Below are positions 5,562 through 9,523 of a DNA stretch of 64,000 bases, piece after piece. Within the stretch, counting starts at the first letter, position 1, and the number at the start of each line of letters is the position of its first letter. The notes under the pieces are model-generated. The model worked only from the letters and a program-made list of their open reading frames with translations, ran no database searches and was not told where the DNA came from. Made by a program: the position numbers and the translations under genes. Source of the stretch: Paenibacillus sacheonensis (GTDB taxonomy: Bacteria; Bacillota; Bacilli; Paenibacillales; Paenibacillaceae); contig NZ_JAAAMU010000009.1 of NCBI RefSeq assembly GCF_009909195.1, positions 186,001 to 250,000 of the forward strand, in the 5' to 3' direction.

Positions 5562-6851
5562 TTATTCCGCCGCCAAAGGCTCCGCGAACAAATGCTTATA
5601 TTTCTCGTAATCGGCTCTCCTGCACTCCATCGTGAGACGGGTGCCGTTCGGCTCGTAATCGGTTGCCTGCACATGGGCGTTGGCATTGAAGTACGAGACC
5701 AGCCGGCCCTCCGCGAACGGAATGATGACCTCGCACTGGACGTAATCCTGGAAGATCCGATCCTTTACCAGCGTGACCAGCTCTTCCAGACCCGCTCCCT
5801 CCTTGACGGAGAGATACACCCTGTCGTCTTCCGCCCGAGGGTAGCGTTCTCCGGTCAGGTCCGTCTTGTTGTACGCGTAGACCATCGGAATATGACCCGC
5901 GCCGAGCTCCTTCAGCGTCGCATTGGTGACTTCGATCAGACGCTCGTATTCCGGGTTGGAGTAATCGACGACCTGAACCAGCAGGTCCGCCTCGGCGACC
6001 TCCTCCAGCGTGGAGCGGAAAGCCTTGACGAGATGATGCGGCAGTTGACTGACGAAGCCGACCGTGTCGGTCAGCAGGAACGCCTTGTTATCCGGCAGCT
6101 CGATGCTCCGAACCGACGTCTCGAGCGTGGCGAAAAGCATGTCTTTGGCCAGCACCTGTTTGTTCGAGTCGGGCATGTAGCGGTCGAGAATCGCGTTCAT
6201 GAGACTGGATTTGCCCGCATTCGTGTAGCCGACGAGACAGACGACGGCGGCTCCGGTTTTCAGCCGCTGCTTGCGCTGCACCTGCCGCCGCGAGACGAGC
6301 TTCTCCAGATCCTCCTGCAGCGCGGAGATCCGCTCCTCGATGCGGCGACGGTCGAGCTCGAGCTTCGTCTCGCCCGCGCCCCGGTTCTTCAAGCCCGAGC
6401 CGCCGCCTTGGCGGCCGAGCGATTCCCGCAGGCCCACGAGCCGCGGAAGCATATATTGCAGCTGCGCCACTTCTACCTGCAGCTGCGCTTCTCGGGTCTG
6501 CGCCCGATCGCCGAAAATATCGAGGATCAGAATCGTCCGGTCGATGACCCGCTTATCCAGCGCGCCCTCCAGATTGCGGAGCTGGGACGGCGACAGCTCG
6601 TCGTTGAAGATGACGGTCGAAGCGTCCAATCCCTCCGCGTACGCGGCCAACTCTTGAATTTTACCCGTGCCCAGATAATGAGGACCGTTGATCTTGGATG
6701 CATTCTGCGTCAGCTCGCCGACGACTTCGATGTTGTTGGCTTCGGCAAGGCTGCGCAGCTCTTCCATCGAGTACGCAAAATCCGGTCTGTCGTTCAAGTT
6801 CACGCCGACGATGACGGCTTTATGATTGATGGCTGCTTGTTGTTCTTCCAT
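5562..6851 (-). CDS. hflX: Ribosome-associated GTPase HflX
   Basis: A 429-residue HflX-type GTPase that binds the 50S subunit and splits stalled or vacant 70S ribosomes under heat or antibiotic stress. Domains in order: N-terminal alpha/beta domain (NLNDRPDF... NGPHYLGTGKI), helical linker with the family signature GGSGLKNRGAGETKLE, then the G domain with G1 GYTNAGKS, G3 DTVGF and G4 NKTD, and a short C-terminal tail. ATG 6851 is preceded by AAGGAGG at 9 bases; the upstream in-frame start in the same frame has no ribosome site. It has an unusually long leader (see the structured leader entry), which suggests transcription attenuation. Confidence 0.96.
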   Translation of the reverse strand: MEEQQAAINHKAVIVGVNLNDRPDFAYSMEELRSLAEANNIEVVGELTQNASKINGPHYLGTGKIQELAAYAEGLDASTVIFNDELSPSQLRNLEGALDKRVIDRTILILDIFGDRAQTREAQLQVEVAQLQYMLPRLVGLRESLGRQGGGSGLKNRGAGETKLELDRRRIEERISALQEDLEKLVSRRQVQRKQRLKTGAAVVCLVGYTNAGKSSLMNAILDRYMPDSNKQVLAKDMLFATLETSVRSIELPDNKAFLLTDTVGFVSQLPHHLVKAFRSTLEEVAEADLLVQVVDYSNPEYERLIEVTNATLKELGAGHIPMVYAYNKTDLTGERYPRAEDDRVYLSVKEGAGLEELVTLVKDRIFQDYVQCEVIIPFAEGRLVSYFNANAHVQATDYEPNGTRLTMECRRADYEKYKHLFAEPLAAE

Positions 6852-6914
6852 AGGGGAATTCCTCCTTCGTGGATGGCGATAGTCGCTTGTCATAAGTATC
6901 GCTTGTCATGAGCA

Positions 6915-6948
6915 TAAAAAAACGCACGGGCGCTTGGGCCTGTGCGTT
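6915..6948 (-). terminator. Intrinsic terminator inside the hflX leader
   Basis: An 11-bp stem (AACGCACGGGC with GCCTGTGCGTT on the plus strand) is followed on the minus strand by a run of seven U. It ends about 64 nt before the hflX start, where it would stop transcription before the gene unless an antiterminator forms. Confidence 0.8.
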
Positions 6949-7069
6949 TCGCGGATACGAAAGCGAGGAACTCGGATTCTCCCGGACGAAAAGCCGCTGG
7001 GCTTTCCGTCTCGAATCGGCGGCGAAAACTGCATCGATCGGCCATCATCGCCGATTGCAACGCAATCCA

Positions 7070-7234
7070 TCACCTGCTATTCACCGGGAGGCAGGTCGCT
7101 TCGGAGCGCATACGGCGAAAGAAGCCCGCTGTACGGCGGGTGCTTGCAATCGCGGGTGCGCTATACGAATGTTTAAAGGCAACACGGGAACCGAACCCTA
7201 CCGGTTCTGGTTCCTCTCGCGTCGGATGGTGCAT
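7070..7234 (-). CDS. Possible 54-codon upstream ORF in the hflX leader
   Basis: The ATG at 7234 has AAAGG six bases upstream and opens a 54-codon frame beginning MHHPTREEPEPVGFG and ending CLPVNSR before TGA. It resembles no protein family I know and has no obvious arrest motif. Its ribosome site is paired in the predicted stem 7237-7247/7173-7183, whose other half lies inside the ORF itself. That arrangement is typical of leader-peptide control, as known for antibiotic-inducible ribosome-protection genes. A chance open frame in G+C-rich DNA is a real alternative. Confidence 0.25.
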   Translation of the reverse strand: MHHPTREEPEPVGFGSRVAFKHSYSAPAIASTRRTAGFFRRMRSEATCLPVNSR

Positions 7235-7375
7235 GGGTTACCTTTAATGGACAGACCTATCCTGAGTCCTCTGCACGCAGGCAGAGCCTTGGGCGCTATT
7301 CAATTAGCCGCGCAAAGTGCGAACTCGGATAAAGTCTATCACACGTAACCCTCCGTTCCGGTTTGAAGTAAAGCC

Positions 7376-7405
7376 ATCTTAACATACGGACAAGCGGAAA
7401 TGCAA
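7376..7405 (-). promoter_or_regulatory. Predicted promoter of the hflX leader
   Basis: On the minus strand, TTGCAT (7400-7405) and TAAGAT (7376-7381) are separated by 18 bp, a fair sigma-A match. It lies just after the end of the plsY-like gene and would start transcription near 7369, giving a leader of about 500 nt. Confidence 0.45.
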
Positions 7406-9437: not shown

Positions 9438-9452
9438 CTCGGATAATCATAT

Positions 9453-9523
9453 AGGCCCGGTGGGGGTCGAACCCACAACCTACCGGTTAAGAGCCGGTTG
9501 CTCTGCCATTGAGCTACGGACCT
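9453..9523 (-). tRNA. tRNA-Lys (anticodon CTT)
   Basis: The minus strand folds as a full cloverleaf: acceptor AGGTCCG/CGGGCCT with one G-U pair, D arm GCTC-AATGGCA-GAGC, anticodon arm ACCGG-CTCTTAA-CCGGT with anticodon CTT (reads AAG), and T arm GTGGG-TTCGACC-CCCAC. The D loop is short (7 nt), giving a total of 71 nt. The 3' CCA is not encoded. It has its own strong promoter and terminator, so it is a single-gene unit. Confidence 0.95.

Follow-up and report, generated by a model that had tools for sequence, protein, structure and literature searches.

A probable ribosome-mediated transcription attenuator with an Arg-X-Arg leader ORF upstream of hflX in Paenibacillus sacheonensis and its relatives in front of antibiotic resistance genes

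The stretch of DNA analysed here (the window) comprises 64,000 nucleotides of Paenibacillus sacheonensis, whose genome has a size of 7.4 Mb. Its minus strand encodes an hflX gene that starts with an ATG at 6851 and is separated by a gap of 583 nt from the stop codon (7435) of plsY on the same strand. The leader of hflX comprises the positions 7416-6852 of the minus strand. That this gap holds a long and stem-rich leader, as proposed in the initial annotation, was borne out: the minus strand folds into a more stable structure than its dinucleotide shuffles (z -5.9, 0 of 100 shuffles as good). The plus strand of the leader also beats its dinucleotide shuffles (z -3.6, 0 of 100), and the minus strand was taken as the RNA strand because conservation, the ORF and the gene order fit it. 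The strong terminator described 64 nt before the hflX ATG is present, with its 5′ arm at 6948-6938, its 3′ arm at 6931-6921 and a T tract reaching to 6916; a terminator scan lists a shorter stem (6935-6920) at the same site. The Shine-Dalgarno sequence of hflX itself (6865-6861) is located 3′ of this terminator. The plausible promoter of the initial annotation could be retained only in part, as a scan of the leader region with the sigma-70 consensus yielded no promoter on the minus strand and the probable extended -10 element TGTTAAGAT is deduced from related sequences. Also in line with that annotation, which had named no known RNA family, Rfam 15 at gathering score gave no match on the leader (best permissive score 16.6 bits vs 153). 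The sole Rfam match in the window is a tRNA-Lys (CTT) at 9452-9523 on the minus strand. An Rfam search of 20 related loci yielded four matches (group II intron pieces and a T-box), all of them away from the leader domain. The coordinates of all features are compiled in Table 1.

Table 1. Features of the hflX leader and the adjacent gene in the window.
Feature	Position	Strand	Basis or remark
hflX, regulated gene	5562..6851	-	NCBIfam TIGR03156 GTP_HflX, 430.6 bits vs cut-off 216.75
Intrinsic terminator AACGCACAGGC/GCCCGTGCGTT + T tract	6916..6948	-	ends 64 nt before hflX ATG
Pre-terminator element ATCC-GAG-TTCCTC	6965..6977	-	pairs with 7271-7259
Helix 7247-7237/7183-7173	7173..7247	-	exclusive with P1; seen on masking the footprint predicted for a stalled ribosome
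Conserved leader domain, OFF fold (P1-P5)	7235..7351	-	window fold + alignment
P1	7351-7345/7241-7235	-	window fold alone
P2	7340-7332/7258-7250 + 7330-7327/7262-7259	-	window fold + alignment
P3	7326-7322/7268-7264	-	window fold + alignment
Hairpin P5 CUCUGC-CUGCGU-GCAGAG	7269..7286	-	with 3′ flank 7268-7259, antiterminator donor strand
Leader ORF, 12 codons, GTG...TAA, MIDFIRVRTLRG followed by stop	7304..7342	-	codon test on 47 leaders
Shine-Dalgarno GGAGG of leader ORF	7350..7354	-	sequence
Probable extended -10 TGTTAAGAT	7376..7384	-	relatives carry a similar TG-x-TAxxAT at a comparable position

Matches to the leader DNA were found in 26 of 59 genomes (own included), and hflX lies downstream of every best leader match in the related genomes. 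The closest relatives keep two blocks (~7416-7093 and 6973-6916), the stretch between them not being kept, and wider relatives keep 7416-7232 or a part of it with 70-95% identity (best match per genome). The core of the leader is a conserved domain of ~120 nt that contains the 12-codon leader ORF. This conserved region (7416-7232), with its Shine-Dalgarno sequence and the Arg-X-Arg ORF, was missed by the initial annotation, and it is this combination that turns the leader into a recognisable kind of object. Three genomes (G013, G016 and G034) possess a second copy of the domain after hflX; according to the search, two of these copies precede an erm gene, and an erm-like start read by eye follows the third.

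Two elements which had been put forward from the sequence of the window were rejected. The 54-codon ORF exists (7234-7070), but its frame is not kept in 12 relatives, and the best piece found by tblastn covered 35 residues at 51% identity (E 0.004), long matches being absent elsewhere; it is thus not retained as leader peptide. The mutually exclusive stems 7055-7037 and 7067-7053 do exist and overlap at 7055-7053, but they are not conserved: the blocks shared with the two closest relatives do not include the stretch ~7092-6974 in which they lie, and the stems at 7037-7067 were discarded. The third pairing of this kind, 7247-7237 with 7183-7173, can indeed form (11 bp), but not as the proposed lid on the ribosome site of the 54-codon ORF; according to the folding predictions it rather looks like a part of the alternative, read-through fold.

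The search for covarying stems upstream of hflX, which had been suggested as a check, was run, and the helices P2-P5 of the conserved domain were found to covary. As the RNAalifold consensus on the raw alignment was poor, the domain structure was written by hand from the fold of one sequence (L016), and the following values therefore lean towards this structure. Among 47 distinct sequences, 91.3% of the cells hold standard pairs and both-side changes occur in 12 of 32 pairs, neither value being reached by any of 500 shuffles. Four of five measures lay above all 500 shuffles, the exception being the number of further pair types, which was reached by 10 of 500. When the helices were slid along the alignment, the percentage paired, the double-change cells and the covariation score of the true position exceeded those of all slid versions, whereas the number of pairs with double changes was as high or higher in the slid versions (12, 12 and 13). 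For the same helices in 58 class-level matches, 83.9% of the cells were paired and double changes occurred in 29 of 32 pairs (no more than 18 after sliding), with all measures above all shuffles and slides in an alignment which was itself fitted to the model. The minimum-energy fold of the window exhibits an alternative pairing (7317-7309/7277-7269) in the place of P4/P5. One locus (L025, the same place as L038; 1501-1658) carries an insertion of ~50 nt in the P4 hairpin, with the ORF and P5 being kept.

The leader ORF reads GTG ATA GAC TTT ATC CGA GTT CGC ACT TTG CGC GGC TAA and starts 7 nt behind its GGAGG. In relatives this spacing to the GTG or ATG start is 6-8 nt, mostly 7; as the sequences of the relatives were cut around a GGAGG, the presence of the GGAGG is a matter of selection there, and the spacing is not. 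That the ORF is translated is supported by its codons. Among 47 distinct hflX leader DNAs, picked for Arg at codon 6 and R/K/W at codon 8, 45.5% of the codon differences are synonymous in frame; the two other frames give 3.9% and 9.2%. In 45 of the 47, codon 8 reads AGA, CGC, AGG, CGT or CGA. Two leaders (L017 and L020; MIDFIRVWTLRG followed by stop) contain RVW in place of RVR. The Arg-X-Arg motif of the window is Arg6-Val7-Arg8, the same codon positions at which the arrest of the ErmDL peptide (MTHSMRLR...) has been mapped, Leu7 of Arg6-Leu7-Arg8 occupying the P site and Arg8 the A site (PMC8298421, as far as its text was available). By analogy, the Val7 codon (7324-7322) is expected to occupy the P site of a stalled ribosome. 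Such a conserved domain could in principle also act as a riboswitch-like aptamer that binds an antibiotic or a metabolite directly, with the ORF being incidental, and its large size and many nearly invariant nucleotides would fit this idea. The in-frame codon signature, the conservation of Arg-X-Arg and the precedents for peptide sensing make it very improbable.

Apart from the domain, relatives keep the distal terminator and a helix which can join P5 and its 3′ flank (7286-7259) to the terminator's 5′ arm and the sequence before it (6977-6938). In the window, the terminator arm begins 338 nt after P5, and 8 of 9 positions of its 5′ arm are complementary to P5, one of them as G.U; the pairing contains a C.A mismatch. 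By eye, a U of P5 offers a pairing partner to the A in the 5′ arm that faces a C of the 3′ arm within the terminator. A terminator before the gene was readable in 57 of 62 distinct leaders; the five others are L046, L060 and L066, where the picked hairpin is by eye not the pre-gene terminator, and L086 and L087, which are too short. The terminator arm is complementary to P5 (CUGCCUGUGU) and a CCUC element to the sequence 3′ of P5 (AGAGGACUC): ACAGGC is present within the 5′ arm in 46 of the 57 loci, and 46 of the 57 likewise have CCUC no more than 35 nt ahead of the terminator. The duplex energy of the P5 strand with the pre-terminator element and the 5′ arm has a mean z of -4.1, 53 of the 57 loci ranking within the best 5% of their shuffles. 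The segment of the domain that makes the best partner is located no more than 8 nt from P5 in 56 of 57.

Complementarity is maintained where the sequences change. Compensatory sets are GUCUGUGU/ACACAGAC in L017 and L020, AGAGAACUCCG/CGGAGUUCUCU in L019 and UAAUCGG/CCGAUUA in the mph copies L035 and L036, and class-level copies contain GUAAUCGG/CCGAUUAC vs GUAAACGG/CCGUUUAC. When partners were swapped between loci, the own partner gave -23.1 kcal/mol compared to -17.2 kcal/mol for foreign ones, and surpassed the foreign mean in 150 of 167 loci (167 of the 202 domains described below; 10 duplicates, 5 without gene, 8 without P5 and 12 without a terminator by rule were left out). No gain was observed for Mef-like (3) and RlmA-like (1) copies and little for LmrB-like ones (3). 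The shuffle test was weaker at class level, with 31 of 55 loci ranking within 5 of 100 and the best window at P5 in 36 of 55, which seems to result in part from the rule picking an upstream terminator.

The consequences of a stalled ribosome were simulated by folding with a mask around codon 7 (-14/+16 nt) in 56 loci, namely the 57 less L022, which has ATC at the start position. Under this mask the pairing of P5 with the terminator arm went up in 36 of 56 loci and down in one, and the long-range pairs rose from 9.3 to 16.6 on average. In the full-length fold the terminator decreased from 0.80 to 0.58 and the antiterminator increased from 0.05 to 0.26. In a series of shifted masks, carried out with every third locus (n = 19), masks moved by -30 to +15 nt raised the long-range pairing like the stall mask, and so did a mask at +75 nt, approximately the 3′ side of P2; masks over P5 abolished it, and no rise was obtained at +110 and +140 nt. 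It is therefore the opening of P2 that matters in these simulations, not the exact site of the stall. The masked fold of the window gains the pre-terminator helix of 12 bp (7271-7267/6969-6965, 7266-7264/6973-6971 and 7262-7259/6977-6974), the 11-bp helix 7247-7237/7183-7173 and 7258-7254/7097-7093. In its full-length masked fold the terminator stays and pairing of P5 with the 5′ arm is not predicted (fraction 0.00 both free and masked). The thermodynamics of the window thus support that 3′ strands are freed and paired anew, but not by themselves the loss of the terminator, the case for which is based on the relatives and on the order of synthesis.

Comparison between genomes thus points to the ORF, the domain, the terminator, the complementarity and the association with the gene as genuine parts of this locus. 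We consider it very probable that the leader is a ribosome-mediated transcription attenuator which turns hflX on in response to a slowing of the ribosome by macrolide-type (MLS) antibiotics; the identity of the drug, the stalling and the read-through are what we infer. Without drug, a ribosome would translate MIDFIRVRTLRG and leave, P1-P5 would close with the Shine-Dalgarno sequence of the leader being buried again, and the terminator would end transcription. With drug, the ribosome would stall while its P site holds Val7 and its A site Arg8, and would cover the 5′ strands of P2 and P3, which would set their 3′ strands free. The freed segment 7271-7259 would then pair with 6977-6965, helix 7247-7237/7183-7173 would form and P5 could capture the 5′ arm of the terminator, so that the polymerase would continue into hflX, the product of which would split stalled ribosomes. 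The idea of the initial annotation that hflX is controlled by antibiotic-responsive attenuation, as in Listeria, is in this way well supported by comparison, since the Arg-X-Arg peptide and the terminator are conserved, a long-range helix competes and the domain also precedes macrolide resistance genes.

The same sensor might take a simpler main route, in which P2 itself is the terminator and is blocked by the stalled ribosome, or else a ribosome site is set free (translation attenuation), the complementarity between P5 and the terminator being secondary. Three erm copies (L032, L033 and L034) have a T-run directly after P2, at least two terminators precede the gene in 36 of 179 examined loci (by rule), and the long-range pairing is likewise released by a mask on the 3′ side of P2. 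The tlrB gene of B. subtilis is described as having both kinds of attenuation (PMC6851288, available in part). In the window, however, P2 is followed by CATTAAAGG and no T-run, the Shine-Dalgarno sequence of hflX is positioned after the terminator, and the long-range pairing passes both the shuffle and the swap controls. This simpler route is hence regarded as unlikely.

The distribution of the RNA was analysed with a covariance model (R1) of 123 positions, the E-values of which are rough. Within the order it has matches in 187 of 296 genomes, the own genome among them, which represent 29 of 48 genera; within the class there are matches in 102 of 398 genomes (42 of 146 genera), 70 of these 102 being outside the order by row count; at the threshold used for the class (E <=0.01) ~4 matches are expected by chance. 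In the phylum, 14 of 398 genomes are matched at E <=0.001, eight of them outside the class. The own genome contains one convincing copy, the next best hit having an E of 1.2 on a different contig. It also encodes a second HflX paralog (G000:C12:117197-118372, L122; 44% identical), and the model found no copy of the RNA on the contig of this paralog. Listeria likewise has a second hflX, reported to play no role in antibiotic resistance (PMC6310831, as far as the source was available). One locus (L140, 2782-2666 and 2534-2411) exhibits tandem domains upstream of a single erm gene, the second of which is weak (28.5 bits).

For an overview of the genes behind the RNA, 202 domains were collected, consisting of 49 from named records, 95 from the order-level search and 58 from the class level; species recur in this set, so that its members are not independent. 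The class-level part represents 58 of 79 match rows outside the order, chosen by hand, and the matches of the order were taken in part. In the named records there were 49 matches in 48, of which 44 had enough downstream DNA, with 38 preceding hflX, four erm and two mph. Across all 202 domains the following gene was hflX in 103, mph in 44, erm in 19, a macrolide esterase gene in 13 and an Msr-type ABC-F gene in six cases, and more rarely a gene for an LmrB-like (3), Mef-like (3), SDR (3), RlmA-like (2) or Tet-like MFS (1) protein. In one RlmA-like case (L265) group II intron pieces lie between the switch and the gene (733-1289, Rfam). Taken together, 197 of the 202 domains precede hflX, other resistance-type or SDR genes, and the records of the other five end too early. 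The initial annotation had considered a free-standing RNA as an alternative, and a small RNA of ~450 nt would indeed be yielded by the terminator, with read-through into hflX being incidental. This reading is not supported and appears exceedingly improbable, as the 197 copies all lie in sense before genes of the listed families.

The assignment of these genes was checked with NCBIfam for one representative each. Macrolide esterase, Msr, Erm and HflX scored above the cut-off, and the Mph-, Mef-, RlmA- and Tet-like representatives remained below their named cut-offs. The LmrB-like representative exceeded the cut-off of the general DHA2 efflux model alone and the SDR representative that of the generic short-chain dehydrogenase model alone. 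As the reference proteins used for classifying the genes come from clusters in the same data, the eight weak matches outside the class provide a cleaner check: seven of them precede SDR, Msr (2), Mef-type (2), mph and erm genes. The eighth, a weak partial match (L276), is followed by an ORF which by eye resembles a transcription regulator and fits no listed gene family. An SDR gene is located behind the switch in four genomes (L219, L220, L175 and L269, the protein of the latter being 84% identical to that of L219), and this oxidoreductase is a candidate for an unrecognised resistance enzyme.

The leader peptides differ between the gene families. A motif [RK]x[RK] is present in 167 of 202 leaders, with X at codon 7 in 121 of these 167; the ORF picker was weighted towards this motif, and by the rule applied no ORF was assigned in 7 of the 202 domains, while the ORFs of 28 lack the motif. 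The motif occurs in 100 of 103 hflX, 38 of 44 mph, 13 of 19 erm and 5 of 6 Msr leaders, and in none of the 13 esterase and none of the three SDR leaders. Among the 13 esterase leaders, seven read MAN-stop (L228, L224, L235, L241, L247, L257 and L258), one reads MANQ-stop (L243) and five are longer without the motif. These very short ORFs sit at the conserved start position in place of the Arg-X-Arg leader; the esterase copies also allow a second start two bases upstream (MWQ...), which makes MAN-stop a choice by spacing. SDR leaders read MIDFSR-stop or MIDSSR-stop, and MLIFSR-stop (by eye) in L269 outside the class; similar six-codon ORFs are found in L060 and L140 (erm) and L215 (mph).

The 16-membered macrolides arrest chains of two to four residues, and the MAN-stop leaders may be tied to a drug class. 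As a tentative extension, for which we see somewhat less than an even chance, one RNA platform consisting of the domain and the distal antiterminator might have been adopted repeatedly, in Bacilli and also outside them, as a plug-in sensor of drugs that target the ribosome, with the leader peptide as its exchangeable sensing head. The heads would then be Arg-X-Arg leaders of 8 to 17 codons before hflX, mph, erm and Msr genes, six-codon leaders ending in SR-stop before SDR and a few erm and mph genes, and MAN-stop before macrolide esterases, the last perhaps tuned to the 16-membered macrolides arresting very short chains.

Several known systems resemble the leader of the window, all of them being likened here by description and on the basis of partly available sources. 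The closest is uORFC-6-1, with 51 representatives mainly upstream of hflX in Bacillales, an Arg-Leu-Arg uORF, a covarying structure downstream of the uORF start and a proposed control of transcription by stalling (PMC8632094). The window has the same position before hflX and an Arg-X-Arg uORF in a covarying structure, with Val instead of Leu as the middle residue, and judged by the description of the motif it is probably a member of uORFC-6-1. The available description includes neither a distal antiterminator nor copies before mph, erm, esterase, Msr, Mef or SDR genes (PMC8632094). The Rli80-hflXr attenuator of Listeria monocytogenes, which was demonstrated by experiment, shares the hflX-type gene, a small RLR ORF (14 aa) and a terminator/antiterminator pair (PMC6310831). 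For ermK, transcription attenuation has an experimental precedent (review PMC5418344), and the ermK/ermD leader of Bacillus shares it together with the Arg6-X7-Arg8 stall position (PMC8298421, PMC5418344); the window differs in its 12 codons and in the distance of the terminator arm from P5. The tlrB (yxjB) leader of Bacillus subtilis (MIIQFIRYR), likewise an experimental precedent, shares an RXR peptide, a terminator and induction by macrolides, but its peptide ends at the motif and NusG pausing and an SD-sequestering hairpin are involved (PMC6851288). The six-codon leader of msrD (MYLIFM-stop), which lacks Arg-X-Arg, stalls at its UAA and is a precedent for arrest at a stop codon that is relevant to the MIDFSR-stop and MANFSR-stop leaders (PMC10314930).

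Features of RXR macrolide leaders found in the window are the short ORF with its own Shine-Dalgarno sequence and the motif, and the terminator between ORF and gene. Among the R1-matched leaders, MTHSIRLRFPTLNQ (before a Mef-like gene), MTHAMRLRFPTLNQ and MTHSMKLRFPTLNQ (before mph) presumably resemble the ErmD peptide. A search of the open-licence literature, supplements aside, found no description of the domain before mph, esterase or SDR genes. With uORFC-6-1 (PMC8632094) and Rli80-hflXr (PMC6310831) already described in these partly available sources, the notion of a new riboregulator holds only in part, and, as ErmK/D is known as well, only the wide range of genes and taxa, the distal antiterminator and the classes of leader peptides can be claimed as new.

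By comparison of sequences, then, the attenuator is to be regarded as real, functional-looking and of a known kind, far wider than the published description found, and its mechanism as well supported. The scattered cases of ermK, hflXr and the hflX uORF motif would thereby come together in what seems to be a single RNA family, accessible to searches with a covariance model. The gene behind the switch becomes a prediction of resistance function, and should the platform idea be true, the switch would mark so far unknown resistance genes, of which the SDR oxidoreductase in four genomes is the clearest case. The natural series of leaders from three to seventeen codons on one RNA scaffold may, finally, reveal how the sequence of a leader sets the drug that is sensed.
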